From Pseudomonas viridiflava (GTDB lineage Bacteria > Pseudomonadota > Gammaproteobacteria > Pseudomonadales > Pseudomonadaceae), in NCBI RefSeq assembly GCF_900580865.1, contig NZ_UTBZ01000095.1:62001-126000 (forward strand): a stretch of DNA of 64,000 bases, written 5' to 3'. Below the pieces are notes generated by a model, which saw only the letters and a list, made by a program, of their open reading frames with translations, was not told the DNA's origin and did no database searches. Below, piece after piece: positions 886 through 61,885 of this stretch (the first letter of the stretch is position 1; every line of letters begins with the position of its first letter). Position numbers and translations under genes: made by a program.

Positions 886-2640
886 ATGGTCTGGCAGCAA
901 ATTTACGACCCGTTCGGCAACCCGGTGATCTCCACGCTCATGGCCGCCGTACCGGTGGTGGTGATGCTCGCGGCACTGGCGTTCTTCCACGTCAAGGCGC
1001 ATCTGGCGGCGCTGCTGGCGCTGGCTTCCGCCCTGCTGATTTCGATTTTTGCCTTCGGCATGCCGGCGAGCATGGCTGGCTCTGCGGCGTTGTTTGGCGC
1101 GGCCAATGGCCTATTGCCGATCGGCTGGATCGTCCTCAACATCATCTTTCTGCATCGTCTGACCACCGAGAACGGCTCGTTCAAAGTGCTGCAGGATTCA
1201 CTCGCACGCATCACCGATGATCGCCGTTTGCAATTGCTGTTGATCGCGTTCTGCTTCGGTGCATTTTTTGAAGGCGCGGCAGGGTTCGGTACGCCGGTGG
1301 CGGTGACCGGGGCGATTCTGATCGGCCTCGGCTTTTCGCCGCTGGCCGCGTCGGGTCTGGCGCTGATCGCCAACACCGCGCCGGTGGCATTCGGCGCACT
1401 CGGCACGCCGATCATCACCCTGGCCAAAGTCACCGGGCTGGATGAAATGGAACTGTCGATGATGGTCGGTCGGCAGTTGCCGTTTTTCTCGGTGCTGGTG
1501 CCGTTCTGGCTGATCTGGGCGTTCGCCGGGTGGCGCAAGATGCTCGAGATCTGGCCGGCGATTCTGGTGGCCGGAGTGAGTTTCGCCGTGCCGCAGTTTC
1601 TCGTGTCGAACTACCACGGGCCGATGCTGGTGGACGTGATCGCTGCGTTGATTTCCATGGCCTGTCTGACGTTGTTCTTGAAGGTGTGGAAACCGGCGAC
1701 CATTCACACCTCGGCAGCGCTAACAGGGCGGGTCGACAATTCCAAAGTCGAAGAAGAAAAAGTCACCGCCAGCGCCGCGTTCAGCGATCAGGCACGTCCG
1801 GCGGTGATGCGCGCGTGGATGCCGTGGATCATCCTCACCGTGTTCGTATTTGCCTGGGGCACCCAGGGCTTCAAGAATATGTTCGACACCCGTCCGGCGA
1901 TTGATCCGGTCACCCAGTCAGCCAAGCTTGATCCCGCCGGCAAACCGCTGCGCGAGGCCAACCCGATTTTCGCCCCGGCGGTGACGTTCACCAGCCTGCA
2001 CCTGCAAATCGAAAAAGTGCCTCCCGTGGTTGCTGCACCGAAAGCGGAAGAAGCGGTGTACAAGTTCACTTGGCTCACCGCCACCGGCAGCGGGATTCTG
2101 CTGGCAGCAATTGTCGGCGGTTTGCTGATGGGCTATTCGATTCCGCAACTGATCAAGCAGTACTTGCGCACATTGTGGGTGGTGCGATTTTCGTTGATCA
2201 CCATTGCGGCGATGCTGGCGCTGGGGTTTCTCACGCGCTACTCCGGACTCGATGCGACCATGGGTCTGGCGTTTGCGGCGACGGGGATTTTCTATCCGAT
2301 GTTTGGCACGTTGCTCGGTTGGCTGGGTGTAGCGTTGACCGGTTCGGATACCGCGTCAAACGTGTTGTTTGGCGGCTTGCAGCGGGTGACCTCGGAGCAG
2401 CTCGGGATCAGCCCGGTGCTGATGGCGGCAGCGAACAGTTCCGGTGGGGTGATGGGCAAAATGGTCGATGCGCAGTCGATCGTGGTCGCCTCCACCGCGA
2501 CGCGTTGGTATGGGCATGAGGGCGAGATTCTGCGCTATGTGTTTTTCCACTCGATTGTGCTGGCGATTCTGGTCGGCGGACTGGTGACGTTGCAGGCGTA
2601 TGTGGCGCCGTTTACCTCGATGGTGGTGGGCGGGCATTAG
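886..2640 (+). CDS. lldP: L-lactate permease (LctP/LldP family)
   Basis: This 584-residue polytopic membrane protein imports L-lactate, and often D-lactate or glycolate, by proton symport. Family marks include the N-terminal MVWQQIYDPFGN, the conserved EGAAGFGTPVAVTGA segment and the ALTGSDTASNVLFGGLQ segment near the C-terminus. Hydrophobic helices run the whole length. The length is slightly above the usual 550-560 because of a hydrophilic loop around residues 280-400. The start at 886 was chosen because the family begins there and AGAGG lies upstream. No lactate dehydrogenase genes adjoin it, so its exact substrate (lactate or glycolate, as for GlcA) is not fixed by context. Confidence 0.9.
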   Translation: MVWQQIYDPFGNPVISTLMAAVPVVVMLAALAFFHVKAHLAALLALASALLISIFAFGMPASMAGSAALFGAANGLLPIGWIVLNIIFLHRLTTENGSFKVLQDSLARITDDRRLQLLLIAFCFGAFFEGAAGFGTPVAVTGAILIGLGFSPLAASGLALIANTAPVAFGALGTPIITLAKVTGLDEMELSMMVGRQLPFFSVLVPFWLIWAFAGWRKMLEIWPAILVAGVSFAVPQFLVSNYHGPMLVDVIAALISMACLTLFLKVWKPATIHTSAALTGRVDNSKVEEEKVTASAAFSDQARPAVMRAWMPWIILTVFVFAWGTQGFKNMFDTRPAIDPVTQSAKLDPAGKPLREANPIFAPAVTFTSLHLQIEKVPPVVAAPKAEEAVYKFTWLTATGSGILLAAIVGGLLMGYSIPQLIKQYLRTLWVVRFSLITIAAMLALGFLTRYSGLDATMGLAFAATGIFYPMFGTLLGWLGVALTGSDTASNVLFGGLQRVTSEQLGISPVLMAAANSSGGVMGKMVDAQSIVVASTATRWYGHEGEILRYVFFHSIVLAILVGGLVTLQAYVAPFTSMVVGGH

Positions 2641-2661
2641 GGCGGCCATACACCTATCCAA

Positions 2662-2751
2662 TGTGGGAGCGAGCCTGCTCGCGAAGGCGTCCGGTCTGCC
2701 AATGAAGATATTGGCTGTGCCGGCCACTTCGCGAGCAGGCTCGCTCCCACA
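2662..2751. repeat. family A REP doublet
   Basis: Two inverted copies of GTGGGAGCGAGCCTGCTCGCGAA face each other around about 45 bases. The same element recurs at many junctions in this window. It lies between lldP and the paoABC leader. Confidence 0.9.
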
Positions 2752-2930
2752 GGGCTGTTTGTGGTCCAGAAGATTAATGAGCCACACGCATAACTCTATA
2801 GCGCAAATCCGCAAAAACCTTTTCCTCTTCCCGACAGTCACTCCTTAACGAGACCGGCGAAGACGCTGGCTGCCCGCTTGGGCCATCCACGACCCTGCTG
2901 CCCTGATGAAGAGAGAAAAGGAATCGAACC

Positions 2931-3554
2931 ATGACGATTTCCCGACGCGGATTTCTGATCCTCGGCGCCGTGACCGCCACCGCCTTCGCGATGCCGCCGT
3001 TTATCAGCCTCAAGGCCTACGCGGCCAATCTGGAGCAACCGGCCATGAGCAAAGTGACGATCAACGTCAACGGCAAGCCGCGTGCGCTTGACGTCGACAC
3101 CCGCACCACCCTGCTCGATGCCCTGCGCGAGCACCTGCACCTGACCGGCAGCAAAAAAGGCTGCGACCACGGCCAGTGCGGCGCGTGCACGGTGATCGCC
3201 GATGGTCGACGCATCAATTCCTGCCTGACCCTGGCGGTGATGCACGAAGGCAGCGAGATCACCACCATCGAAGGCCTCGGCATGCCGGACAATCTGCACC
3301 CGATGCAGGCCGCGTTCATCAAGCATGACGGCTATCAGTGCGGCTATTGCACACCGGGGCAGATCTGCTCGGCGGTGGCGGTCATCAAAGAGATCCGCGA
3401 CGGCATTCCCAGCCATGTCAGTGAAAACCTTACCGAGGCGCCACGGTTGATTGCCAGTGAATTTCAGGAGCGCATGAGCGGCAATATCTGCCGTTGCGGC
3501 GCGTACTCGAACATCATTGAAGCGATCACTGAAGTCGCGGAGGTGCCGGCATGA
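2931..3554 (+). CDS. paoA: periplasmic aldehyde oxidoreductase, [2Fe-2S] subunit PaoA
   Basis: This is the small subunit of a molybdenum-containing aldehyde oxidoreductase, which passes electrons from the molybdenum site towards FAD. A twin-arginine signal (SRRGF at residues 4-8, then a hydrophobic core to AYA-AN near 31) predicts export of the folded complex. Two [2Fe-2S] clusters are visible: C78, C83, C86 and C98 in the plant-ferredoxin domain, and C137, C140, C187 and C189 in the helical domain. Length (207) and layout match E. coli PaoA (YagT). Its stop overlaps the start of paoB by four bases, so the three subunits are translationally coupled. Confidence 0.93.
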
Positions 3555-4507
3555 GACCGTTCAATTACAGCCGCGCCGACTCCCCCGCCGCGGCCGCTGC
3601 GCAAGCCGCTCAAGTCGAAGGTGCGCGGTTCATCGCTGGCGGCACCAACCTGCTCGACCTGATGAAACTCGACATCGAGACCCCGCTACATCTGATCGAC
3701 GTCAATCATCTTGGCCTGGACCAGATCGAGGCCACGCCCGAAGGCGGATTGCGCATTGGCGCGCTGGTGCGCAACACCGATCTTGCGGCGGATCAGCGCA
3801 TCAGAAAAGACTACGCCCTGCTCTCCCGCGCCTTGCTCGCCGGGGCTTCCGGGCAGTTGCGCAACATGGCCACCACCGCCGGCAACCTGTTGCAACGCAC
3901 GCGCTGCCCCTACTTCTACGACACGAATCAGGCATGCAACAAACGCCAACCCGGCAGCGGTTGCGCAGCGATTGGCGGAGTCAGTCGGCAGTTGGGCATC
4001 ATCGGCGTCAGCGACGCGTGCATCGCCACGCACCCGAGCGACATGGCCATTGCCATGCGTGCCCTCGATGCGCAGATTGAAACGGTGAAACCCGATGGCA
4101 CGACTCGCAGCATTGCGATGGCCGACTTTCATCAGTTGCCCGGCACCACGCCGAACATCGAAACCAGCCTCACCCCCGGCGAATTCATCACCTCGGTGAC
4201 ACTGCCCGCACCGCTTGGCGGCACCCACGTTTATCACAAGGTGCGCGATCGCTCGTCCTATGCATTTGCGCTGGTGTCAGTCGGTCTGATCCTGCAAAAG
4301 GACGGCAGTGGCCGAGTCGCCGTCGGCGGTATTGCGCCGAAACCCTGGCGGGTTGAAGCCGCCGAAGCGTTGCTGCCGCAAGGCGCCAAAGCGGTCAGCG
4401 CACGCCTGCTCGACGGCGCCACGCCGACCCACGACAACCAATTCAAACTGACCCTGGTCGAGCGCACGCTCGGTTCGGCGTTGGCGCAAGCGAGGGATGA
4501 AGCATGA
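3551..4507 (+). CDS. paoB: periplasmic aldehyde oxidoreductase, FAD subunit PaoB
   Basis: This 318-residue protein is the FAD-binding medium subunit of the Pao complex. The flavin-binding loop [12 protein letters not shown] lies at residues 27-38. A second motif, [15 protein letters not shown], is followed by C119, C129 and C138. This matches the PaoB-specific [4Fe-4S] insertion, which ordinary xanthine dehydrogenase FAD subunits lack. There is no signal peptide of its own, so it would be exported by hitch-hiking on PaoA. It overlaps both neighbours by ATGA. Confidence 0.92.
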
Positions 4508-6702
4508 AATTCGACACGCCCGCCACCACCAACCCGATCGACCAGTTGAAGGTCATCGGCCAACCCACCGACCGCATCGAAGGCCCGCTGAAAACCAGCG
4601 GTCAGGCGCCTTACGCCTATGAGCAGCACGAGGCGGTGGCCAATCAGGCTTACGGTTTCATGGTCGGCTCGGCCATCGCCAAAGGCCGGATCAACAACAT
4701 TGATCTTGAACAGGCGAAAGCCGCGCCAGGTGTGCTGGCCATCGTCACCGCCGCCAACGCCGGCAAGCTCGGCAAGGGCAAATACAACGCCGCGCCTTTA
4801 TTGGCCGGGCCGGAGATTCAGCACTATCACCAGGCTGTTGCGCTGGTGGTTGCCGAGACGTTCGAGCAGGCCCGTGCGGCTGCGCAAATGGTTAAGGTCG
4901 ACTACGTCACGGCCAAAGGCGAATTCGATCTGGCCAGCGTGCGCGATAAAGGCGTCGAGCCAAAAGACGAATTGCCCGACGTCAGCCACGGTGATTTCGC
5001 CAAGGCGTTCGCCGCCGCGCCGGTGCAGTTCGATCAGACCTACACCACGCCCGATCAGTCCCACGCGATGATGGAGCCGCACGCCACGTTGGCGGCTTGG
5101 AAAGGTGATCAACTGACCTTGTGGACGTCGAACCAGATGATCGCGTGGAGCGTCGGCGACATCGCCACCACCCTCGGCTTGCCCAAGGAAAAAGTCCGGC
5201 TGATTTCGCCGTACATTGGCGGCGGTTTCGGCGGCAAGTTGTTCATTCGCGCCGATGCGATTCTTGCCGCCCTCGGTGCGCGCATGGCCGGCAGACCGGT
5301 AAAAGTCGCCCTCGCCCGCCCGCAGATCGCCAACAACACCACCCACCGCCCGGCGACGATTCAGCGCATTCGCATGGGTGCGACGGCGGACGGCAAACTC
5401 ACCGCGATCGCCCACGAAGGCTGGTCGGGCAACTTGGCTGAAGGCAAGGTCGAGGTCGCGGCGCAACCGAGTCAGTTGTTATACGCCGCTGAAAATCGAC
5501 TAGTGAGCATGCGCCTCGCGCCGCTGGATCTGCCCGAAGGCAACGCCATGCGTGCACCTGGTGAAACGCCGGGGCTGATGGTGCTGGAAATCGCCATGGA
5601 CGAGATGGCCGAGCAGCTCAAGCTTGATCCGGTCCAGTTCCGCATTCTCAACGACACCCAGGTCGACCCGGTGAAAACCGAGCGGCCATTCTCGCAGCGG
5701 CGCCTGATCGAATGCCTGCAAACCGGCGCGGAGAAGTTCGGTTGGGACAAGCGTAATGCGCAACCGGGAACACGGCGTGAAGGTCGCTGGTTGATCGGAA
5801 TGGGCGTGGCAGCGGCGATCCGCAACAACCTGCTGGTCAAGTCGGGTGCGCGGGTGCGGCTGGAGCACGATGGCAAGGTCACGGTGGAAACCGACATGAC
5901 CGATATTGGCACCGGCAGCTACACGATCATCGCGCAGACGGCGGCCGAGATGATGGGCGTTGGTTTGAAGGATGTGAGCGTGCATCTGGGCGATTCGAAC
6001 TTTCCGGTGTCCGCAGGTTCCGGCGGGCAATTTGGCGCTAACTGCTCAACGGCTGGGGTGTATGCCGCGTGTATGAAGTTGCGTGAGGCGGTGGCTGGCA
6101 AGTTGGGCATGGCGGCGGATCAGGCGGAGTTTGTCGACGGTGAGGTGCGCGTCGGCACCAAGAGCGTGCCGTTACGCAATGCCGCGCAAAACGGCGCTGT
6201 GGTGGCTGAGGACAGCATCGAATTTGCCGACCTGGCCGAGCAGTATCAGCAGTCAACGTTCGGTGCGCATTTCGTTGAGGTCGCGGTGGATGCGGCGACC
6301 GGTGAAGTGCGGGTCCGCCGCATGTTGGCGGTGTGCGCGGCCGGGCGAATTCTCAACCCGAAAGCGGCGCGCAGTCAGGTTATCGGGGCAATGACCATGG
6401 GCGTCGGTGCGGCGTTGATGGAAGAATTGGCGGTGGACAAGAAACTTGGGTTTTTCGTCAACCATGATCTGGCCGGGTATGAAGTGCCGGTGCATGCCGA
6501 CATTCCGCATCAGGAGGTGATTTTTCTTGATGAGACTGATCCGGTGTCTTCGCCGATGAAGGCCAAGGGTGTTGGTGAATTGGGGATTTGCGGGGTCAGT
6601 GCGGCGGTGGCGAATGCGATCTACAACGCTACGGGGGCTAGGGTGCGGGAGTATCCGATTACGCTGGACAAGATTTTGTCGTCGTTGCCGGAGATGATGT
6701 GA
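4504..6702 (+). CDS. paoC: periplasmic aldehyde oxidoreductase, molybdenum subunit PaoC
   Basis: This is the large catalytic subunit that binds molybdenum cytosine dinucleotide and oxidises aromatic and other aldehydes to acids in the periplasm. The length is 732 residues, the same as E. coli PaoC. GGGFGGK occupies residues 239-245, and the catalytic glutamate is E692 in [10 protein letters not shown], the position known in PaoC. The start overlaps paoB. The dedicated chaperone gene paoD that follows paoABC in E. coli is absent; a repeat cluster comes next. Insertion of the cofactor must therefore use a chaperone encoded elsewhere. Confidence 0.93.
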
Positions 6703-10662: not shown

Positions 10663-11529
10663 ATGCGCCACGCCGTTCGCTCGTCTCGCTTCGTTTCGCT
10701 GTGCCTGCTGATCCTTTCCCCCCTGTTCGCTGCAACCGCCCATGCCGGTGCGGAGCGGCAACTGGTGGCCGCCATCAACGACTATCGCGCCCATCCGCAA
10801 CGCTGCGATCGGCGCCCGGCGCAACGGCTGGCACCGTTGGCGCTGAAGTCGAACCTGGCCTTGCCGATCGGTTATCGCTACGCCGGGGGCATGCGTGAAG
10901 CGCTGAAGTCGTCCGGCTACTCCGCCGTTGCGGTGCGCAGTATTCGCGTGACCGGTGCCGAGGACGCCGAAGAAGCTTTCGACCTGCTGCAAGACGAGCA
11001 CTGCGCCGCGCTGCTGGATGCGAGCTACGCCGACATCGGTGTCAGTCGTTCGCGCAATGAATGGCAAGTGGTGTTGGCGCAACCGGTGCTCGACAGCCGC
11101 GTTGGCGATAACCGCAGCGTCGGCAAGGCGCTGCTCGCTGAGGTCAACGCCGCGCGCGCCCGGCCACGGATGTGCGGACGCCAGCGCTTCGCCGCCGCCC
11201 GGCCGCTGAGCTGGAACGCCGCGCTGGGCGCCGCCGCACAGGGGCACAGCAAAGCCATGGCTTACGGCAACTACTTCGCACACCGCGATCCGGACGGCGA
11301 CATGCCCGCCGATCGCGCCCGCGCGGCCGGCTATCGCGGTCGGCAAATCGGCGAAAACATTGCAGCCGGGCAGAGTTCACCGGGCAAGGCCATGGCCGGA
11401 TGGCTGGCCAGCCCCGGGCATTGCGCCAATCTGATGAACCCGATGTTTACCCAGGTCGGCGCCGGGTTTGCCAGTGAGGCACGCAGTGATGAAGGGGTTT
11501 ACTGGACGATGGTGTTTGGTGCGCAGTGA
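10663..11529 (+). CDS. secreted CAP-domain (SCP/PR-1-like) protein
   Basis: This 288-residue protein has a signal peptide (cleavage near AHA-GA). The N-terminal half (30-145) has RQLVAAINDYRAHP and resembles a degenerate CAP repeat. A clear CAP domain lies at about 150-285: LLAEVNAARARP, HSKAMAYGNYFAHRDPDG, IGENIAAGQ and HCANLMNPMFTQVGAGF. The His/Glu pocket residues are present in the second half. Bacterial CAP proteins have no settled function; cell-wall or lipid binding is usual speculation. The last 31 bases overlap the convergent DHH gene. Confidence 0.87.
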   Translation: MRHAVRSSRFVSLCLLILSPLFAATAHAGAERQLVAAINDYRAHPQRCDRRPAQRLAPLALKSNLALPIGYRYAGGMREALKSSGYSAVAVRSIRVTGAEDAEEAFDLLQDEHCAALLDASYADIGVSRSRNEWQVVLAQPVLDSRVGDNRSVGKALLAEVNAARARPRMCGRQRFAAARPLSWNAALGAAAQGHSKAMAYGNYFAHRDPDGDMPADRARAAGYRGRQIGENIAAGQSSPGKAMAGWLASPGHCANLMNPMFTQVGAGFASEARSDEGVYWTMVFGAQ

Positions 11530-12440
11530 CTGCCAGCGTCCAGCCCCAATTTCAACAGTTCCTTGCGCAACATTGACGGTGCTCGCACGGCCAATTCGGC
11601 CTGCCAATCGAGTAGCAATAAGCGATTGAGCTTCTGCTGGCTGAGCTCGGCTGGCGCCAGAAAGCAGCTTTTACGGTCGCGAATGCTGATCACATTCAAC
11701 AGCCAGTCATCGCCCTGCTCTGCCATCCAGCGATTGATTGTCGGCCGGTGTTTTTGCAGCAAGGCGTCGGCATCCCACACGGTCATTTGCGCGAATACCT
11801 GAGGCAGGTGGGTTTCTGGCTTCATCTGTTTCAGATCGGCGGCCAATGCGGCGGCAAGGTCAGATTCAATCGCGGCCTGGCATTCGCTGAAATACTGCGC
11901 CGGCCAGTCCGCCGGCAAGCGCGCCAGCCGCGCGAGCGATTCATACGCTTGAACGTCCAATGCTGTGGTCATTTTCCCGGTGAGATTCAAGGTGTTGTCG
12001 AGAATCGCTGTGGCCAGTAGCGCCGCGCTTTGCTGACTGATTTTCGGCAACAAATCAGCCGCGCCCCAACGCTGAAAGACCTGTGTGGCGGCAGCACCGA
12101 CAGGACGGATATCGGCGGCACAACCGAGTCTCTGCGCCCAGTAGTGCTCGTAACCGGGATGATGGTCGATGACTTCCACCACCTGATCGAGCACCACTAT
12201 CGGGTCGAAATGGTGATGGTCCGAGATATCCACCAGAACAAACTCATCCTGTGCTGTCGGCACGTAATCATCGAGCGCTTCACCGTTGATCTTCAGACGT
12301 TCGGGAATGCTGGCATTGAGCGGCGCACCGCTGACCGCCCGGGCCGCCACGCCCTGGCAGTTCAGCAGTTCGGCATACGCAATGCAGCAGGCATATGCAT
12401 CAATGTCCAGGTAAGCCGAACCGGCCGTCACCACTCTCAC
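11499..12440 (-). CDS. DHH-family phosphoesterase of the selD operon
   Basis: This 313-residue protein carries the DHH phosphoesterase metal motifs: DIDAY (D12, D14), DISDHHHFD (D71), IDHHPG (D92, H93, H94) and AILDNTLN (D148). A C-terminal domain shares features with DHHA2-like substrate domains. Relatives hydrolyse pyrophosphate, polyphosphate, short oligonucleotides or cyclic dinucleotides, and which applies here is unclear. It is the last gene of a four-gene operon headed by selD, and its start overlaps the stop of the NifS-like gene by ATGA. Linkage to selenophosphate synthesis suggests a phosphorylated selenium or pyrophosphate substrate, but this is inference. Confidence 0.8.
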   Translation of the reverse strand: MRVVTAGSAYLDIDAYACCIAYAELLNCQGVAARAVSGAPLNASIPERLKINGEALDDYVPTAQDEFVLVDISDHHHFDPIVVLDQVVEVIDHHPGYEHYWAQRLGCAADIRPVGAAATQVFQRWGAADLLPKISQQSAALLATAILDNTLNLTGKMTTALDVQAYESLARLARLPADWPAQYFSECQAAIESDLAAALAADLKQMKPETHLPQVFAQMTVWDADALLQKHRPTINRWMAEQGDDWLLNVISIRDRKSCFLAPAELSQQKLNRLLLLDWQAELAVRAPSMLRKELLKLGLDAGSHCAPNTIVQ

Positions 12441-13633
12441 AAGGCGTGCTCCTCAAGCCGTATTGCAGATGCGCTCAGCGGCAAATTCAAGGCCTGGGCG
12501 ATGCCGGCCAGAATTCGTTCGTAGGCGATCTGACACTGTTCCTCGGCAATGGAAATTCGCACGGTGCTCGCGGCGATCCGCTCAGGGTAGCCCAATTGCG
12601 TGACGGTATTGGACAGGTTGTTTTTCTTGTCCGAACAGGCTGATCCACCCGTGATGTAGATCGCCTGGTTGTTCAATGCCCACTGCAGTTTTTTGGTGTT
12701 GATCCCCGGCAGTGCGACGAAGCTGACGCAGGGCACTCGTGGCGCTTGCTGTCCGATTACAACCACCTCACCGAGCAAGCCTTGCAGTTGCTTTTCAAAG
12801 CACTCCCTTGCGTGCTGCACCTCGTCTTTGCTGTGCGAGTACTTGGCGTGCTTTTCCTGCAGAGCAGTTTCGATTGACAGAATGCCCGGGTAATTCTGCG
12901 TGCCACCGCGCAGCCCGCCCTCCTGGCCACCGCCTGCAATCAACGGCGACAAGTCGTAACGATTCTTCGCATACAGAAAACCTGCGCCAGGCAGCGCGCC
13001 GAATTTGTGTCCCGAGGCAATGGCGAAGTCGACGCCGAATGCCTGTAGATCCACAGGGATTTTGCCGATCGCCTGGGTCATGTCGGAATACAGCAACCCG
13101 CCCTGCGCCTTGACCAGACGTGCGATGCTTTCGAGGGGTTGCATCACCCCGGTTTCGTTATGCACGGCCATGACGCAGACCAGCGTCGGTCGTCCTGCAT
13201 GGGCGATCAAAAATTGCTGTAGCTGTTCGAGGTCGAGCAACCCGCTTGTGTCATGACCGACGGCGACGGCGTGCAGACCTTCCAGGCAGTAACGCTTGAT
13301 GTTCTGCAGCGTACAAGCGTGTTCTATGGCCGAGTACAGCACAACCGGCCGCTCGTGCTTGTAGCGTTCGAAAAAATCATGAAACACCTGCGCGCAACCT
13401 TCGCTGGAACCGCTATTGAAAATCAGACATTGCGTGTCGACATTCAACAGTCGAGCGACGCTGCCCCGCGCCCGCTCCACTCGTTCCAGCAACTGCACAC
13501 CGAGGGCATGATTGGCATTGGGGTTGGCGCACTGTCGGGTCGAGAACAGCGCCTGGAGCATGTTGCTCACGCCAGTCGAGACCGGAGCCGAACCACAAAC
13601 ATCGGCATAAATTGCATCCACAGCGATATCCAT
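12437..13633 (-). CDS. NifS-like PLP enzyme (selenocysteine lyase/cysteine desulfurase)
   Basis: This 398-residue class V aminotransferase-fold protein should release sulfur or selenium from cysteine or selenocysteine as an enzyme-bound (per)selenide. H104 stacks on PLP, D184 binds the ring and K210 in SGHKFGALPGAG is the Schiff-base lysine. The mobile-loop catalytic cysteine is C333 in TGGSACSDKK. A GTG at 13642 is also possible, but GGAAG spaced eight bases before the ATG at 13633 favours the latter. Lying between a TauE-type transporter and a DHH phosphoesterase behind selD, it probably feeds selenium to SelD. No IscU or SufE partner is adjacent. Confidence 0.85.
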   Translation of the reverse strand: MDIAVDAIYADVCGSAPVSTGVSNMLQALFSTRQCANPNANHALGVQLLERVERARGSVARLLNVDTQCLIFNSGSSEGCAQVFHDFFERYKHERPVVLYSAIEHACTLQNIKRYCLEGLHAVAVGHDTSGLLDLEQLQQFLIAHAGRPTLVCVMAVHNETGVMQPLESIARLVKAQGGLLYSDMTQAIGKIPVDLQAFGVDFAIASGHKFGALPGAGFLYAKNRYDLSPLIAGGGQEGGLRGGTQNYPGILSIETALQEKHAKYSHSKDEVQHARECFEKQLQGLLGEVVVIGQQAPRVPCVSFVALPGINTKKLQWALNNQAIYITGGSACSDKKNNLSNTVTQLGYPERIAASTVRISIAEEQCQIAYERILAGIAQALNLPLSASAIRLEEHAL

Positions 13634-13704
13634 ATCAAACACTTCCAGTTTTCTGTTTTATGTCATTAGGATGCTGCCCGAGGTATTCGGACAGTCTTGG
13701 TTAC

Positions 13705-14475
13705 TCAGATGATCAAGCGCGCCATAAGCTGAATTGAACAGAGCAGAACGAATGCATTCAATGCACGTTTCAAATGCCTGGCCTCCAGTCGATGAGACAA
13801 GGCCGCGCCCAAAAAACCGCCCAGCACAATCCCGATCACCAGTTCACCGGTATAACCGAGAAACTCCCCCGCTGAGCCCAGCCGGCCAAACAACGCCCCG
13901 CTGGCGCCGATGATGCCGATCAGCGCCGAGGTCGAAATGGCCTGTTTGATGGGCAGACCGAACAGGCTGATCAGCACCGGCAGATAAATGAAGCCGCCTC
14001 CCTGCCCGACCAGTCCGCACAACACGCCGAGCACCAGTCCCGTCAACGGCAGCGACAGCGCCGGGTGGTTGCACAACAGGGCAACCGGCTGACGGAACAG
14101 GTACGTCACCAGTAGCGACAACAAACCCAGCAGTCCGAAAACAAACAGAATGAAGTTTTCGCTGAACGCATCGGCATGAACCGAGGCAAAAAAGTTGGCG
14201 ACGGCCATCGGTATCGCGAAGCTTCTGATCACTCGCCAATCCGGCTGAAAGCGGACGCGGTGCAGCGCAAACGAAACCAGTGAAGAGAAAAAACCCTGTG
14301 CGGAAGACAGCCCCGTGACCACTTCAATCGGTAACTTCTGACCGGACAACATCGGATAAACCAGCACCAGAAGAGGCGTCACAATGATGCCTCCACCGAT
14401 ACCGAACAGTCCCGACATGAACCCGGCCATCACTCCCACACCGGTCATGACCGGGTAGAACGTCATGGCAGTCAT
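13705..14475 (-). CDS. TauE/SafE-family transporter of the selD operon
   Basis: This 256-residue protein has about eight membrane helices and the two TauE/SafE repeats (GLFGIGGGIIVTPLL near residue 24 and GLVGQGGGFIYLPVL near 158). The family moves sulfite, sulfonates, thiosulfate or related oxyanions. Only one base separates its ATG from the selD stop, so it is probably translationally coupled to selD. A second in-frame ATG lies at 14466. In this operon a selenium or sulfur oxyanion is the natural guess for substrate; nothing in the sequence proves it. Confidence 0.85.
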   Translation of the reverse strand: MTAMTFYPVMTGVGVMAGFMSGLFGIGGGIIVTPLLVLVYPMLSGQKLPIEVVTGLSSAQGFFSSLVSFALHRVRFQPDWRVIRSFAIPMAVANFFASVHADAFSENFILFVFGLLGLLSLLVTYLFRQPVALLCNHPALSLPLTGLVLGVLCGLVGQGGGFIYLPVLISLFGLPIKQAISTSALIGIIGASGALFGRLGSAGEFLGYTGELVIGIVLGGFLGAALSHRLEARHLKRALNAFVLLCSIQLMARLII

Positions 14476-14476
14476 C

Positions 14477-15526
14477 TCAGCACACCTTGATCTTGCCCGC
14501 CCCGTGCGTCACCCGGCCAATTACCATCAGATCGGGGCACAGCGATTGCCACGCTTGTCGGTTTTCCGCCAGGCACGCTTCGCTGACGGTAAACAGCAAC
14601 CCGCCGTTGGTTTGCGGATCGTGCAGCAGAAACTTGTGCGCCAGTGACAGCTCGCCAAGGTATTCGACGTGCTGCGCATACTTTCTGATGTTGGCGAAAA
14701 CGCCGCTTTCGGAGGAAGTGACCGCCACCGCCAATGATTCGGCAGCGTCATAAAAGGCCAGTGCCGCGGTATCCAGCGTCACATCCAGCTGCCCTAGCCC
14801 GACCATTTCACTGATATGACCCATCAGACCGAAACCGGTAATGTCGGTCAGGCTGCTGACCTCGGGGCTGGCGCTCAGGGTGCGGCCAAACTCGTTGTCA
14901 CCCGTGATCAGCGCCAGGGTGTGCGCAGCAATATCCGTTTGCTCGAGAATTCCGGCCTTCAGTGCGTTGGCGAGGATGCCTACGCCCAGCGGACGCGTCA
15001 TCACCAACACATCGCCGGCCTTGGCGGTGTTGTTCTTTTTCAAACGATTTTTTTCGACCTGGCCGATGATTGAAAAGCCGTAGAGCGGTTGGCTGTTCTT
15101 GATCGTGTGCCCGCCAACGATGCTGACATTGAACTTGTTCATGACTGACTGGGCGCCGAGGATCATCTGGGTCACCTGCTCGACCGGTACCTGCTCCGGA
15201 TCGAACGCCATGATCGAGTTGGCAATCAACGGGTAACCGCCGGACGCAAAGATATCGCTCACCGCGTTGCTGGCCGCCAATTGGCCGAACACGTAAGGAT
15301 CGTTGACGATCGGCGAGAAATAATCGGTTGTGAACAGCAGGTAGTTGTCGCCGTTGTCATAAACGGCGCAATCATCGGAGGACTCGAAACCCAGCACCAC
15401 TTTGTCGTCCGAAACGGTATTGGCCGCTGCGGTTTCCGACAGGATTTTGCTTAACACGCTGGATGGGATCTTGCACCCGCATCCGCCACTCTCAGATTTA
15501 TCCATAATCTGGCAAAACGTCGACAT
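14477..15526 (-). CDS. selD: selenide, water dikinase (selenophosphate synthetase)
   Basis: SelD makes selenophosphate from selenide and ATP, the selenium donor for selenocysteine and selenouridine. This 349-residue protein has the N-terminal catalytic motif GGCGCK (C16, K19, matching C17 and K20 of E. coli). It also has TTDYFSPIV, AASNAVSDIFASGG, GGHTIKNSQPLYG, TDITGFGLMGH and DPQTNGGLL (usually DPQTSGGLL). It starts a tight operon with a TauE transporter, a NifS-like lyase and a DHH phosphoesterase. selA, selB or the selenouridine synthase gene are not in the window. An upstream GTG at 15529 is possible, but AAGGAA fits the ATG at 15526. Confidence 0.93.
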   Translation of the reverse strand: MSTFCQIMDKSESGGCGCKIPSSVLSKILSETAAANTVSDDKVVLGFESSDDCAVYDNGDNYLLFTTDYFSPIVNDPYVFGQLAASNAVSDIFASGGYPLIANSIMAFDPEQVPVEQVTQMILGAQSVMNKFNVSIVGGHTIKNSQPLYGFSIIGQVEKNRLKKNNTAKAGDVLVMTRPLGVGILANALKAGILEQTDIAAHTLALITGDNEFGRTLSASPEVSSLTDITGFGLMGHISEMVGLGQLDVTLDTAALAFYDAAESLAVAVTSSESGVFANIRKYAQHVEYLGELSLAHKFLLHDPQTNGGLLFTVSEACLAENRQAWQSLCPDLMVIGRVTHGAGKIKVC

Positions 15527-15673
15527 CACACTTCCTTAGAATCCATTTTCCGTTTTAAAAACAGAGCATTACGCCGCTCAGCACCTGTTACATCATGTTT
15601 CAGGCAGGGGCAAAATCGCACACTCTGATGACGGAAATATGACAAGGCGAATAGATTTCGACGTCTGAACAAT

Positions 15674-15722: not shown

Positions 15723-17006
15723 TCAAGCCGCCCGCTGCCCTCCCGCCACCATCACCGAAGCCGCCAGCATCGCCCGCAACAACACCGCACACCCGGCCGC
15801 CAGATCGTCCGGCGCGGCGTTCTCGATTTCGTTGTGGCTGATGCCGCCCTCGCACGGCACGAAGATCATCCCGGCCGGGCCGAGTTCGGCGAGGAAAATC
15901 GCGTCATGCCCGGCGCCGCTGACGATGTCCATATTCGACAAACCCAGCCCTTTCGCTGCGCCGCGCACCGCTTCCACGCAACCTTTTTCGAAGTACAGCG
16001 GCGGGAAGTCCGCTGTCGGCGTCAGTTCATAGGTCAAGCCATGTTCTTCACAGGTGGCCTCGATGACTTGCTTCACCTCGGCGATCATCGAGTCCAGCCG
16101 CGCCGGTTCCAGGTGACGGAAGTCGAGGGTCATGCGCACTTCGCCGGGGATGACGTTGCGCGAGCCGGGATAGGCTTGCAGGCAACCGACGGTGCCGCAG
16201 GCGTGGGGTTGATGGCCGAGGGCGGCGCGGTTGACGGCGCCGACGATCACCGAGGCGCCGACCAGCGCGTCTTTACGCAGGTGCATCGGCGTCGGGCCGG
16301 CATGCGCTTCGACGCCACGCAGCTTGAGGTCGAACCATTTCTGCCCCAATGCACCGAGGACCACGCCGATGGTTTTCTGTTCGTCTTCGAGGATCGGGCC
16401 TTGTTCGATGTGAGCCTCGAAATAGGCGCCGACTTTGTGCCCGCTGACTTTGCGCGAACCGGCGTAGCCGATCGCATTGAGCGCTTCGCCAACGGTGACG
16501 CCGTCGGCATCGACCTTGGCGAGGGTTTCTTCGAGGGTGAATTTCTCGGCAAACACTCCCGAACCCATCATGCACGGAGCGAAGCGCGAGCCTTCTTCGT
16601 TGGTCCAGACCACCACTTCCAGCGGCGCTTCGGTTTCCACGCCGAGGTCGTTGAGCGTGCGCAGCACTTCGACACCGGCGAGCACGCCGAAACAGCCGTC
16701 GAACTTGCCGCCGGTGGGTTGGGTGTCGATGTGGCTGCCGGTCATCACCGGTGGCAGATTCGGATTGCGCCCGGGGCGACGGGCGAAGATGTTGCCGACA
16801 GCATCGACCGTGACGCTGCATCCGGCGTCCTTGCACCATTGCACGAACAGGTCGCGGGCCTGGCGGTCGAGATCGGTCAGGGCCAAGCGACAGACCCCGC
16901 CCTTGACCGTGGCGCCGAGCTTGGCCAGCTCCATGAGCGACGCCCACAGGCGGTCGCGGTTGATGTGCTGATGGCTCGATTGCAGAACGTCTACGGCTGC
17001 GTTCAT
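15723..17006 (-). CDS. hyuC: beta-ureidopropionase / N-carbamoyl amino acid amidohydrolase
   Basis: This 427-residue M20-type zinc hydrolase catalyses the last step of reductive pyrimidine degradation, splitting N-carbamoyl-beta-alanine (or the beta-aminoisobutyrate form) to the beta-amino acid, CO2 and ammonia. Metal-site motifs are GSHIDTQPTGGKFDG, WTNEEGSRF and the C-terminal SGAGHDA. HIEQGPILE and GPTPMHLRKDA match the HyuC/PydC subfamily. It lies with the NCS1 transporter, dihydropyrimidinase, PreT/PreA and a RutR-like regulator. A family A repeat separates it from the transporter gene upstream on the same strand. Confidence 0.9.
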   Translation of the reverse strand: MNAAVDVLQSSHQHINRDRLWASLMELAKLGATVKGGVCRLALTDLDRQARDLFVQWCKDAGCSVTVDAVGNIFARRPGRNPNLPPVMTGSHIDTQPTGGKFDGCFGVLAGVEVLRTLNDLGVETEAPLEVVVWTNEEGSRFAPCMMGSGVFAEKFTLEETLAKVDADGVTVGEALNAIGYAGSRKVSGHKVGAYFEAHIEQGPILEDEQKTIGVVLGALGQKWFDLKLRGVEAHAGPTPMHLRKDALVGASVIVGAVNRAALGHQPHACGTVGCLQAYPGSRNVIPGEVRMTLDFRHLEPARLDSMIAEVKQVIEATCEEHGLTYELTPTADFPPLYFEKGCVEAVRGAAKGLGLSNMDIVSGAGHDAIFLAELGPAGMIFVPCEGGISHNEIENAAPDDLAAGCAVLLRAMLAASVMVAGGQRAA

Positions 17007-17060
17007 GGGGATCTCCTCAGGCTGCTTTTCTTATGAATATTTCTCTGGTGTCGGGTAGAT

Positions 17061-17136
17061 CGCCTTCGCGAGCAGGCTCGCTCCCACAGGGGAAATGCAT
17101 TCCAAATGTGGGAGCGAGCCTGCTCGCGAAGAGGCC
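17061..17136. repeat. family A REP doublet
   Basis: CTTCGCGAGCAGGCTCGCTCC and GGAGCGAGCCTGCTCGCGAA face each other in the gap between hyuC and the NCS1 transporter gene. Confidence 0.9.
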
Positions 17137-17141
17137 ATCCG

Positions 17142-18626
17142 CTACACCGCCGACTTAACTGCAGAAGGCTGCGCACGCATCACGCACAACCCGTAATAAA
17201 TAATCCCGCCCAGCGCCGAGCCGGTAAACCAGCCATAGCTGTAGAACCAACTGAACGCATCGCTGCCCAGCGACAACAACGTCAGCACCACCGGTACCCC
17301 AAAGGCGAGAAACCCGGCCCAGTTCCACGCCGGATACACATCGTCGCGGTACAACCCGGCCAGATCCAGTTGCTGTTTCTTGATCAGGAAATAGTCCACC
17401 ACCATGATCCCGGCGATCGGCCCGAGCAGGCTCGAATAGCCCAGCAGCCAATTGGAGTACACGGTTTCCAGGCTCACATCGGAAACGATCAGACCGAGTT
17501 TTTTCAGCAGTTCATGGCCCATCAGCAGCAACCCGACCAACCCGGTCAGCAACACCGCTTTGGTGCGATTGATGACCTTGGGCGCGATGTTCTGGAAGTC
17601 GTTGGTCGGCGAGACGATATTGGCGGCGGTGTTGGTCGACAACGTGGCGATGATGATCAGCGCCATCGCCACCGCCACCCACACCGGGCTCTGGATATGA
17701 CCGATCAGGCTGACCGGATCGGAGACGGTCACGCCGACCAGTTTCACCGAAGCGGCCGTCATGATCACGCCCAGCGATGCAAACAAAAACATCGTCAGCG
17801 GCAGGCCGAAAATCTGCCCGAGAATCTGATCTTTCTGGCTCTTGGCGTAACGGCTGAAGTCCGGAATGTTCAGCGACAACGTCGCCCAGAAACCGACCAT
17901 CGCGGTCAACCCGGCGGCGAAGTAACTCACCACACTGGCGCCCTCCGGACGCTTCGGCGGGATCGCCAGCAGTTCAGTCATCGACACATTGGGCATCGCC
18001 CACACCAGCAGACCGATACCGACCGCCACCAGCAACGGCGCCGACAACGTCTCCAGCCACTTGATCGACTCGGCACCGCGAATCACCACCCACAGGTTCA
18101 GCGCCCAGAAGATCATGAAGCCGATCACCTCCCCGGTTCCGCCGAGGGATTTCCAGCCCTCGAACACCGAGCCAAGAAACAGGTGAATCGCCAGCCCGCC
18201 AAACATCGTCTGGATACCGAACCAGCCACACGCCACCAGCGCGCGGATCAGGCACGGCACGTTGGAGCCGAGAATGCCGAACGACGAGCGCAGCAACACC
18301 GGAAACGGAATGCCGTACTTGGTGCCGGGAAACGCGTTGAGCGTGAGCGGAATCAGCACGATGACGTTGGCAAACAGAATCGCCAGCAGCGCTTCGCCGA
18401 CGGTCAAGCCAAAGTAAGCGGTGAGCACACCGCCGAGGGTGTAGGTCGGCACGCAGATCGACATGCCGACCCACAGCGCGGTGATGTGCCATTTGTTCCA
18501 GGTTCGTTCGCGCACCTTGGTCGGTGCCATATCGTGGTTGTAACGGGGACTGTCGAGGACGTCGCTGCCGGCTTCGAGTTCGAACAAGCCGTCGCGCTCG
18601 GTCACTTGCGATCTGTTCTGTTGCAT
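17142..18626 (-). CDS. NCS1-family nucleobase:cation symporter
   Basis: This 494-residue membrane protein with about twelve helices belongs to the cytosine/uracil/thiamine/allantoin permease family. NKWHITALWVGMSICVPTYTLGG starts the first helix, and SLNIPDFSRYAKSQKDQ is the conserved loop after helix 6 or so. It would import uracil, thymine or dihydropyrimidines for the adjoining catabolic genes. The start at 18626 was chosen for GTGGAG upstream; the extra 43 codons upstream have no support. It is divergent from hydA across a 625-base A/T-rich gap. Confidence 0.9.
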   Translation of the reverse strand: MQQNRSQVTERDGLFELEAGSDVLDSPRYNHDMAPTKVRERTWNKWHITALWVGMSICVPTYTLGGVLTAYFGLTVGEALLAILFANVIVLIPLTLNAFPGTKYGIPFPVLLRSSFGILGSNVPCLIRALVACGWFGIQTMFGGLAIHLFLGSVFEGWKSLGGTGEVIGFMIFWALNLWVVIRGAESIKWLETLSAPLLVAVGIGLLVWAMPNVSMTELLAIPPKRPEGASVVSYFAAGLTAMVGFWATLSLNIPDFSRYAKSQKDQILGQIFGLPLTMFLFASLGVIMTAASVKLVGVTVSDPVSLIGHIQSPVWVAVAMALIIIATLSTNTAANIVSPTNDFQNIAPKVINRTKAVLLTGLVGLLLMGHELLKKLGLIVSDVSLETVYSNWLLGYSSLLGPIAGIMVVDYFLIKKQQLDLAGLYRDDVYPAWNWAGFLAFGVPVVLTLLSLGSDAFSWFYSYGWFTGSALGGIIYYGLCVMRAQPSAVKSAV

Positions 18627-20691
<2,065 letters not shown>

Positions 20692-20705
20692 AATCCAGGC
20701 CTTCG

Positions 20706-20780
20706 GCCTTCGCGAGCAAGCTCGCTCCCACATTTGAAATGCATTCCCCTGTGGGAGCGAGCCTGCTCGCGAAGAGGCCA
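20706..20780. repeat. family A REP doublet
   Basis: CTTCGCGAGCAAGCTCGCTCC faces GGAGCGAGCCTGCTCGCGAA between hydA and preT. Confidence 0.9.
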
Positions 20781-20847
20781 GTCCAGGCAACACAAAAACC
20801 AATGCCCATCAGAGGCAGCACCTCAAATAACCGTGAGGCCATAAACC

Positions 20848-22215
20848 GTGATCGAGACCCTGAACCATCTCCCCCACCCGCACGAAAGCGCGGCCGCCCT
20901 CGCCGGGCATTTCACTGATCTGGCGCCGCCGCTCAACGACCGGCAGGCGCATCTGGAAGCCTCGCGCTGCCTGTATTGCTATGACGCGCCCTGCGTGAAT
21001 GCGTGCCCGAGCGAGATCGACATCCCGTCGTTCATCCGCAACATCCATCAAGACAACGTGCCCGGCGCTGCGCAGAAAATCCTTTCGGCGAATATCCTCG
21101 GCGGCAGCTGCGCACGGGTGTGCCCGACCGAAATCCTCTGCCAGCAAGCTTGCGTGCGCAATAACGCCCACGAATGCGCGCCAGTGCTGATCGGCCTGCT
21201 GCAACGCTACGCCGTCGACAATGCACACTTCACCGAACACCCGTTCCAGCGCGCCGCCGCCAGCGGCAAACGCATTGCCGTGGTCGGCGGCGGGCCGGCC
21301 GGTTTGTCCTGCGCCCATCGCAGCGCCATGCACGGTCATGACGTGGTGATTTTCGAAGCACGGGAGAAGGCTGGCGGTCTCAACGAATACGGGATCGCCA
21401 AGTACAAACTGGTCGATGATTACGCGCAGAAGGAACTGGATTTTCTCCTGCAGATTGGCGGCATCGAGATTCGTCACGGGCAGAAGCTCGGCGAGAATCT
21501 GACCCTCAGCGAACTGCATCAACAGTTCGACGCGGTGTTCCTCGGCCTCGGCCTCAACGCCAGCAAGCAACTCGGTTTGGCCCATGAAGATGCCCCGGGC
21601 CTGCTCGCCGCCACCGATTACATCCGCGAACTGCGCCAGGCCGATGACCTCACGCAACTGCCACTGGCCGAACGCTGCATCGTTCTCGGCGCTGGCAACA
21701 CGGCAATTGACATGGCCGTGCAAATGGCTCGGCTCGGTGCCCGTGATGTGAATCTGGTATATCGCCGTGGCGCGGCGGACATGGGCGCCACCGGCCATGA
21801 GCAAGACATCGCCAAAGCCAATCAGGTACGCCTGCTGACCTGGGCGCAACCGGAAGAGGTGCTGCTCGACGATCAGGGCCATGTGCGCGGCATGCGTTTC
21901 GCTCGCACCGATCTGGTCGACGGTCGCCTGCAAACCACCGGCGAAACCTTCGAACTGGCCGCTGATGCGATCTTCAAAGCCATCGGCCAATCCTTCGACA
22001 GCAGCGCCCTCGCCGACCCGTTGGCCCGTGAACTCAAGCGTCAGGGCGAACGCATTCAGGTCGACGAAAACCTGCGCACCAGCATCCCCGGCGTGTATGC
22101 CGGTGGCGACTGCACCAACCTCGATCAAGACCTCACCGTGCAAGCCGTGCAGCACGGCAAACTTGCCGCCGAGGCGATCAACGCTCAACTGATGCTTAAC
22201 GTGGAGGCTGCGTAA
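20848..22215 (+). CDS. preT: NAD-dependent dihydropyrimidine dehydrogenase, subunit PreT
   Basis: This 455-residue flavoprotein is the NADH-oxidising subunit of dihydropyrimidine dehydrogenase, which reduces uracil and thymine. The N-terminal iron-sulfur region has CLYCYDAPCVNACPSEID and further Cys at SCARVCPTEILCQQAC. The FAD-binding VVGGGPAGLSCA and NAD-binding VLGAGNTAIDMAV sites follow. The frame begins with GTG, preceded by GAGG at nine bases; no in-frame ATG fits the family N-terminus. preA starts on the base after its stop codon, so the subunits are made together. Confidence 0.92.
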   Translation: MIETLNHLPHPHESAAALAGHFTDLAPPLNDRQAHLEASRCLYCYDAPCVNACPSEIDIPSFIRNIHQDNVPGAAQKILSANILGGSCARVCPTEILCQQACVRNNAHECAPVLIGLLQRYAVDNAHFTEHPFQRAAASGKRIAVVGGGPAGLSCAHRSAMHGHDVVIFEAREKAGGLNEYGIAKYKLVDDYAQKELDFLLQIGGIEIRHGQKLGENLTLSELHQQFDAVFLGLGLNASKQLGLAHEDAPGLLAATDYIRELRQADDLTQLPLAERCIVLGAGNTAIDMAVQMARLGARDVNLVYRRGAADMGATGHEQDIAKANQVRLLTWAQPEEVLLDDQGHVRGMRFARTDLVDGRLQTTGETFELAADAIFKAIGQSFDSSALADPLARELKRQGERIQVDENLRTSIPGVYAGGDCTNLDQDLTVQAVQHGKLAAEAINAQLMLNVEAA

Positions 22216-61669: not shown

Positions 61670-61885
61670 GGTAACTTGGTTCGCGTCACTGAATGTTCAG
61701 TGATCGGGTTTAGTCGCTCGGTAATCTACTTAAACTGCACAACGTTCCAGACAGTAGGTATTTCGATACCTCACTCAATGGTAGCTGTGCGCAGGGCGCC
61801 TTCGGGTGCGCCGGTTTTGGTGGGTTTACCGGTCGACTAACCTGCGTACAGCTGCCACCTTTTCGTTTAGTCGCGAGGTGGTGTC
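61670..61885 (+). ncRNA. structured 5' leader before the DUF6124 gene
   Basis: In this 216-base stretch several helices can be drawn. TCACTGA/TCAGTGA is at 61686-61703, and AGGTAT-TTCG-ATACCT at 61756-61771. A 15-bp stem pairs 61780-61794 with 61842-61856 with only two G-U pairs. Inside it are GGCGC/GCGCC (61795-61812) and CCGGT/ACCGG (61811-61832), which share two bases and so exclude each other. It ends about 25 bases before the gene. It could be a regulatory leader; no Rfam name is claimed. Confidence 0.6.

Follow-up and report, generated by a model that had tools for sequence, protein, structure and literature searches.

A second selD gene in a conserved four-gene operon of Pseudomonas, possibly part of a separate selenophosphate module

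The SelD enzymes (selenide, water dikinases) that have been characterised are selenium enzymes. In the parts of the literature available to us, the uses named for selenium are selenocysteine, selenouridine, the cofactor of selenium-dependent molybdenum hydroxylases (SDMH), and selenoneine or ovoselenol. Canonical selD is found with selU (mnmH) and with selA/selB. In SDMH loci the gene order is sclA-selD-yedF-yqeC-yqeB, with selD next to a gene of the NifS superfamily, and the selenoneine and ovoselenol pathways, as those partial sources describe them, spend selenophosphate on a small molecule outside translation. Here we describe an operon in a 64,000 nucleotide stretch of Pseudomonas viridiflava DNA (contig NZ_UTBZ01000095.1, positions 62,001 to 126,000, called the window below) in which a second selD, which we call selD2, is followed by genes for a TauE/SafE transporter, a NifS-like enzyme and a DHH-DHHA2 protein. 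SelD2 belongs to the same family as canonical SelD and has the same catalytic Cys and Lys. Unlike canonical selD, selD2 does not share a contig with selU or selB and is coupled to the three other genes. The operon matches none of the selenium traits named above, as far as those sources describe them (SenA and SenB were not searched for).

The open reading frames at 11499-15529 on the minus strand give the order selD2, TauE/SafE, NifS-like, DHH (Table 1). An earlier interpretation of this DNA, made from the letters and open frames only (the sequence-only reading), had proposed a four-gene operon with gaps of 1, 71 and -4 bases, and the open frames agree on all three: selD2 and the TauE gene are 1 base apart, the TauE and NifS-like genes 71 bases apart if the latter starts at ATG 13633, and the NifS-like and DHH genes overlap by 4 bases. 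The active-site residues it had listed are also present, C16 and K19 of SelD2 in GGCGCK, and K210 and C333 of the NifS-like protein in SGHKFG and GSACSD, counted from internal ATGs.

The gene order is not peculiar to this strain. Among 398 Pseudomonas genomes, seven have the NifS-like protein at E 1e-75 or better, six of them at full length (the window's own included) and one as a fragment, and in the five other genomes with a full-length protein SelD2, TauE, NifS-like and DHH are all present in the same order. All four genes are also found in records of P. frederiksbergensis 36C6 and P. sp. GV085, so that the order recurs in seven other Pseudomonas loci and in at least three settings (L041 is on the same contig as L035 and was counted once). 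Two of the five other cassettes from the genome set are beside the amidohydrolase gene that adjoins the operon in the window, one is near it with genes between, and two are elsewhere. The sequence-only reading had staked its case on conservation outside the strain, and the five genomes and the named records provide it. We rejected chance adjacency since the order recurs in other Pseudomonas genomes and three of the genes are together on a Sulfitobacter plasmid. Across the six cassettes compared, purifying selection acts on all four genes, with dN/dS (the ratio of nonsynonymous to synonymous substitution rates) of 0.04-0.26, and 0.04-0.11 for selD2; many dS values are above 1, so these ratios are rough.

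SelD2 scores 299.6 bits against the selD equivalog model TIGR00476, well over the curated cut-off of 125, and 279.2 bits against a second model, PRK00943, short of its 299. The catalytic Cys and Lys in GGCGCK are invariant in all six aligned cassettes. It is not the only selD of its genome: on another contig a canonical selD (440.6 bits) adjoins selU, and selB is also over its cut-off. SelD2 is 38% identical to this canonical SelD. The possibility, raised in the sequence-only reading, that a lone selD simply serves selA/selB, or equally selU, is thereby excluded as far as tested. Canonical selD was beside selU in 11/11 Pseudomonas genomes checked, including the six with an intact cassette, and selB was over its cut-off in nine of the 11 and in four of the six cassette genomes (not in G360 and G296). 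A SelD tree of 24 rows places the six SelD2 proteins together (support 100/100), outside the canonical Pseudomonas SelD group; the branches are long, so we claim no deeper placement for SelD2. As a separate observation, all six aligned SelD2 proteins end in a cysteine (KIKVC or KIRVC; window 14477-14482), which was not seen in the other SelDs that we compared at full length.

The NifS-like protein passes PF00266 (165.6 bits, cut-off 21.5), and its pyridoxal phosphate (PLP) lysine and active-site cysteine are invariant in the six cassettes aligned. It falls below the cut-off of all 24 NCBIfam models that it matched, those of the named NifS, IscS and SclA subfamilies among them; the best of these matches is to the cysteine desulfurase model TIGR03402 (213.8 bits, cut-off 530.75), and SclA gives 51.3 bits against a cut-off of 525. 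The transporter passes PF01925 easily (gathering score 32.6), and each of the eight Pseudomonas cassettes seen, counting that of the window, has a TauE gene.

The DHH protein just passes PF01368 (28.7 bits, cut-off 28.1). Its predicted structural model (mean predicted local distance difference test score, pLDDT, 87.9) best matches, in the PDB, the pyrophosphatase (PPase) of S. gordonii, with Z 24.5 over 290 aligned residues and a root-mean-square deviation (rmsd) of 3.7; it also matches yeast exopolyphosphatase (Z 16.6, 288 residues, rmsd 5.5). The match to a family II pyrophosphatase covers both the DHH and DHHA2 domains, so the predicted fold appears to be shared over the full length. Compared with the B. 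subtilis PPase, the two Asp of motif I, the Asp of motif II, the DHH histidines, Lys205, Arg295 and Lys296 are kept. His9 and Asp149, which we take to be metal ligands, differ: in 15/15 aligned Pseudomonas DHH proteins His9 is replaced by Ser or Ala, and Asp149 by Asn. The Sulfitobacter DHH described below has Ser and Asn at these places, and in relatives from Halorussus and Rhodococcus His9 is missing and Asn stands at the place of Asp149, whereas His and Asp are retained in the two ordinary relatives aligned with them, an annotated manganese-dependent pyrophosphatase and a DHHA2 protein. The protein reaches 59.8 bits against the PpaC equivalog, for which the cut-off is 283. With two metal ligands missing, we gave less weight to the reading of this protein as a plain pyrophosphatase. 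The model suggests a protein with the pyrophosphatase fold that falls outside the pyrophosphatases proper and may act on some phosphate compound.

A search of 72,556 plasmid records with DHH gave two matches, one of them a Sulfitobacter plasmid. On this single record selD, a cysteine desulfurase gene and a DHH gene follow one another, each pair overlapping by 4 bases, with local identities to the window proteins of 38% for SelD, 32% for NifS-like and 34% for DHH. The Sulfitobacter and Pseudomonas DHH proteins form one group in a tree of nine rows with long branches (100/97). By eye, GGHTI, SSLTDITGFGL and DPQTNGG are common to the SelD2 rows and the Sulfitobacter SelD, and the six other SelDs displayed have other letters there. 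The trio argues that DHH belongs to the module and travels with SelD and NifS across bacterial classes. A few kb upstream, at 1649-4289, this plasmid (L046) also carries an integrase gene and two genes for TIR-domain proteins.

More distant likenesses involve other partners. In Halorussus a nucleotidyltransferase gene and then a DHH gene come after a gene that matches the SelD-like archaeal family NF038049 (172.9 bits, below the cut-off of 250); SelD2 differs in matching true SelD rather than NF038049, and the annotation of the Halorussus stretch includes no NifS gene. In Thermoproteales, PMC4210487 describes members of this family fused to an acylphosphatase-like domain. In L047 (Halorussus) and L048 (Rhodococcus pyridinivorans), the DHH relatives in which His9 is missing and Asn stands in for Asp149 share a stretch with a gene of the NMNAT-like nucleotidyltransferase family and with one that is SelD-like or PEP-synthase-like (PPDK_N). 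Separately, genes for an acyl-CoA dehydrogenase, SelD, an NMNAT-like nucleotidyltransferase and an ApgM/PhpG-like protein are adjacent on two Rhodococcus plasmids (L080, L090) and a Halobaculum plasmid (L092). At the SelD position of the Halobaculum plasmid is a gene matching the SelD-like NF038049 with 126 bits, below the cut-off of 250; the ApgM/PhpG-like protein is below both cut-offs; and in five Rhodococcus records selD and the nucleotidyltransferase fall under one match. Since PhpG is the name of a transferase of the phosphonoformyl group from a CMP carrier, this cluster may represent a further route, likewise undescribed, that uses selenophosphate or thiophosphate.

Upstream of selD2 we noted a direct repeat resembling a PHO box. 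The first definition of the PHO box was a pair of 7-base repeats separated by 4 bases, and CTGTCAT is the motif most conserved in E. coli (PMC4415409). We therefore scored the best site in the 250 bases upstream against two CTGTCAT 7-mers, for a maximum of 14, with a consensus that comes from E. coli. The window scores 12/14, as does a second site, at -163. A degenerate form of the pattern occurs once in the 64 kb against 0.03 expected, an expectation that is no independent test because the pattern was chosen after viewing the sequences. Scores of at least 11/14 were reached by five of the six cassettes and by eight of the ten DHH genes that stand alone in other genomes (one at 14/14), and by none of eight control upstream regions, which ranged from 8 to 10 with two at 10. 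The stand-alone genes come closer to an independent test, though most of them share ancestry. Two loci with cassette remnants (L022 and L024) scored 9/14 each from approximate starts and were left out of these counts. Directly after the repeat is the element TGTGCGATTTTGCC, which by eye is identical before the stand-alone DHH gene of L016, occurs as close variants before those of L017-L021, L023 and L025, and was not seen before those of L026 and L027. The region upstream of the L016 gene matches that of the window by blastn over 25 bases (E 0.002). These sites suggest that the operon is controlled by phosphate starvation through putative PhoB binding. According to PMC13188914, phosphate transporters are implicated in the uptake of selenite by plants, yeasts and bacteria, which makes a selenium-phosphate link reasonable, and the link between selenite and phosphate transport in yeast is also the subject of PMC5020356.

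We put at about even the chance that the operon is a self-contained second selenophosphate (more broadly, chalcogen-phosphate) module, distinct from canonical selD-selU. In such a module the NifS-like enzyme would free selenium from selenocysteine (or sulfur from cysteine) as a cysteine-bound per(seleno)sulfide, and SelD2 with ATP would make selenophosphate (or thiophosphate), AMP and Pi. DHH would be the dedicated partner that binds the phosphorylated product and acts on it in a pocket that resembles that of pyrophosphatases and has an altered metal site; TauE would move a small selenium or sulfur anion across the membrane; and the PHO-box-like promoter would switch the module on in phosphate starvation, possibly because selenite enters through phosphate uptake systems. 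We infer from their families what the NifS-like enzyme and SelD2 do; the DHH reaction, the TauE cargo, the choice between selenium and sulfur and the physiological purpose are conjecture. A fuller version, in which selenophosphate from SelD2 is consumed under phosphate starvation by a repurposed pyrophosphatase-fold DHH to give an undescribed metabolite containing selenium or sulfur and phosphorus, we advance tentatively and consider less likely than not. The sequence-only reading had proposed much of this, and in part it holds up: the operon is a conserved unit, there is a second selD, and the Sulfitobacter trio makes DHH a member. What finds no support is import by TauE, of which none is annotated beside that trio, a dependence of DHH on selenium, and selenium rather than sulfur as the substrate. 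The PHO-box-like repeat and the altered metal site of DHH were no part of that reading.

Several observations weigh against such a module, the stand-alone DHH genes above all. DHH was found in 13 of 99 Pseudomonas genomes, once with the cassette (the window's own), twice with remnants of it, and ten times with no trace of the other three genes (tblastn at E 1e-10, and blastn of the upstream regions), which is why the dependence on selenium is unsupported. Four close relatives (L016-L019) lack the other three genes and have DHH at the same place by the amidohydrolase gene, where most of the flanking proteins are 90-99% identical; in L020, L021, L023 and L025 it adjoins the same amidohydrolase gene, and in L026 and L027 it is elsewhere. 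The seven stand-alone genes compared have dN/dS of 0.12-0.23. Being under purifying selection, DHH must have some role without SelD2, which is the chief argument against its serving selenium alone. None of the operon genes is known to accept selenophosphate. In Sulfitobacter, the 20 kb that take in the trio include no annotated TauE, no PHO-box-like site precedes the trio (best score 9/14), and a clade of the plasmid SelD with SelD2 is not rejected, and not demonstrated either, by the approximately unbiased (AU) test (p-AU 0.407). In 385 alphaproteobacterial genomes we found eight DHH proteins at E 1e-5, none with a SelD or NifS match nearby, the neighbourhoods being five stretches of 11-12 kb and three with about 1.5 kb on each side; the best of these matches comes after a topoisomerase-like gene, from open frames read by eye. 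The promoter evidence is uneven too: two of the ten stand-alone DHH genes score 10 and 9, and at the shared place 116-119 bases before selD four cassettes score 12 and four score 10 (L036, L037, L042 and L043), L037 reaching 11 only at a different place. Finally, the cassette is rare. No other genome was found with the NifS-like protein at E 1e-75 among 398 of the phylum, with the DHH profile at 1e-15 among 349 of the phylum, or with the SelD2 profile at 1e-80 among 293 of the order, though such strict cut-offs may miss divergent trios and many of the scans covered the same genomes. A scan of genome contigs with two N-terminal peptides of the NifS-like protein found three Pseudomonas records only and has little bearing on distant relatives, a scan of viral contigs with DHH found no relatives, and a phage search with the Sulfitobacter DHH gave one weak match (37% of the query, 28% identity).

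The stand-alone genes invite a simpler account, that DHH is a phosphohydrolase of the Pho regulon that merely shares its promoter with an unrelated selD-TauE-NifS insertion. This would explain why close relatives have DHH alone at the same chromosomal site, preceded by a similar promoter element and under purifying selection. It does not fit the Sulfitobacter plasmid, where selD, NifS and DHH are coupled away from that place and that promoter, nor the remnant loci: L024 keeps the start of selD and then NifS-like pieces by its DHH gene, and L022 a match to the selD leader and NifS-like pieces, which suggests loss rather than insertion. The other three genes were likely lost and DHH kept in these two, perhaps in a single event because their DHH proteins are 92% identical, and the same is possible in the other stand-alone cases. 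On balance we consider promoter sharing rather improbable. We are equally doubtful that SelD2 and the NifS-like enzyme are a backup or specialised supply of selenophosphate for selenocysteine and selenouridine, with TauE and DHH as accessories. SelD2 has kept its catalytic residues and passes TIGR00476, and the cassette genomes do have users for its product, selU in six of six and selB over its cut-off in four; yet all six already have the canonical selD-selU pair, G360 and G296 have no selB over the cut-off, and the DHH gene and the plasmid trio would be left unexplained.

Two further accounts we regard as unlikely, though somewhat less so. In one, the chalcogen is sulfur: the NifS-like enzyme would supply sulfide and SelD2 would make thiophosphate, for a sulfur-phosphorus metabolism under phosphate starvation. 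It is consistent with a NifS-like enzyme that is nearest to a cysteine desulfurase model and far from SclA, and with a transporter family named for sulfite export. SelD2, however, passes the selD equivalog model and keeps GGCGCK, and characterised SelDs are selenium enzymes. Also on the side of sulfur, the SelD-like archaeal family is tied to it in PMC4210487, and the Halorussus gene that shares a stretch with DHH matches only that family. In the other account the operon is a defence against selenium: starvation raises selenite entry, and the operon dismantles selenocysteine, traps selenide as selenophosphate and exports selenium. The PHO-box-like promoter would suit this, as would the implication of phosphate transporters in selenite uptake (PMC13188914) and the constancy of the TauE-type transporter in the Pseudomonas cassettes, but the direction and cargo of TauE are conjectural, the Sulfitobacter trio lacks both an annotated TauE and a PHO-box-like site, and DHH has no clear place.

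An SDMH locus was also considered, with Enterococcus for comparison, and dropped. The window has an xdh-type operon (2931-6702) about 5 kb away, but that operon stays in L017-L019, which have no selD2, and no match to the xdh genes turned up within the 20 kb surrounding cassettes L036-L039. We did not recognise yqeB, yqeC or yedF by eye among the neighbouring open reading frames, and no genome-wide search for yqeB or yqeC was made. By its neighbourhood the operon is not an SDMH cluster.

Table 1. Coordinates of the operon and its upstream elements in the window
Feature	Position	Strand	Details
selD2, second selenide, water dikinase	14477..15526	-	ATG 15526, alternative GTG 15529; TIGR00476
TauE/SafE membrane transporter	13705..14475	-	PF01925, 130.6 bits
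NifS-like PLP enzyme (cysteine desulfurase / selenocysteine lyase superfamily)	12437..13642	-	GTG 13642, alternative ATG 13633; PF00266
DHH-DHHA2 protein, predicted family II pyrophosphatase fold, altered metal site	11499..12440	-	Predicted model, PDB match
PHO-box-like direct repeat TTGTCAT-ATTT-CCGTCAT	15628..15645	-	102-119 bases upstream of the selD ATG; 12/14 matches
TGTGCGATTTTGCC element, directly after the PHO-box-like repeat	15609..15622	-	Sequence read by eye

Around the operon, open reading frames read by eye at 15723-22215 appear to be genes of pyrimidine or hydantoin degradation (amidohydrolase, NCS1-type transporter, hydantoinase, PreT-like), and they are conserved at the same place in relatives without the operon. 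A C4 antisense RNA at 61774-61862 (RF01695, 74.8 bits) hints that a phage or satellite element lies near the end of the window.

DHH is not mentioned in the parts of the main texts of PMC4210487, PMC13188914, PMC2276186 and PMC5322559 available to us. Of the papers listed as mentioning three or more of selD, selenophosphate synthetase, DHH and TauE, none has a title on this operon, and TauE appeared in none. The use made of selenium (or sulfur) here may be one not yet described. If a second, self-contained module is the right reading, a SelD that is placed apart from those uses, bound to a DHH protein across two bacterial classes and apparently under phosphate control would be an addition to the uses of selenium and would link selenium to phosphate starvation, and the analysis points to three proteins that would allow a direct answer.

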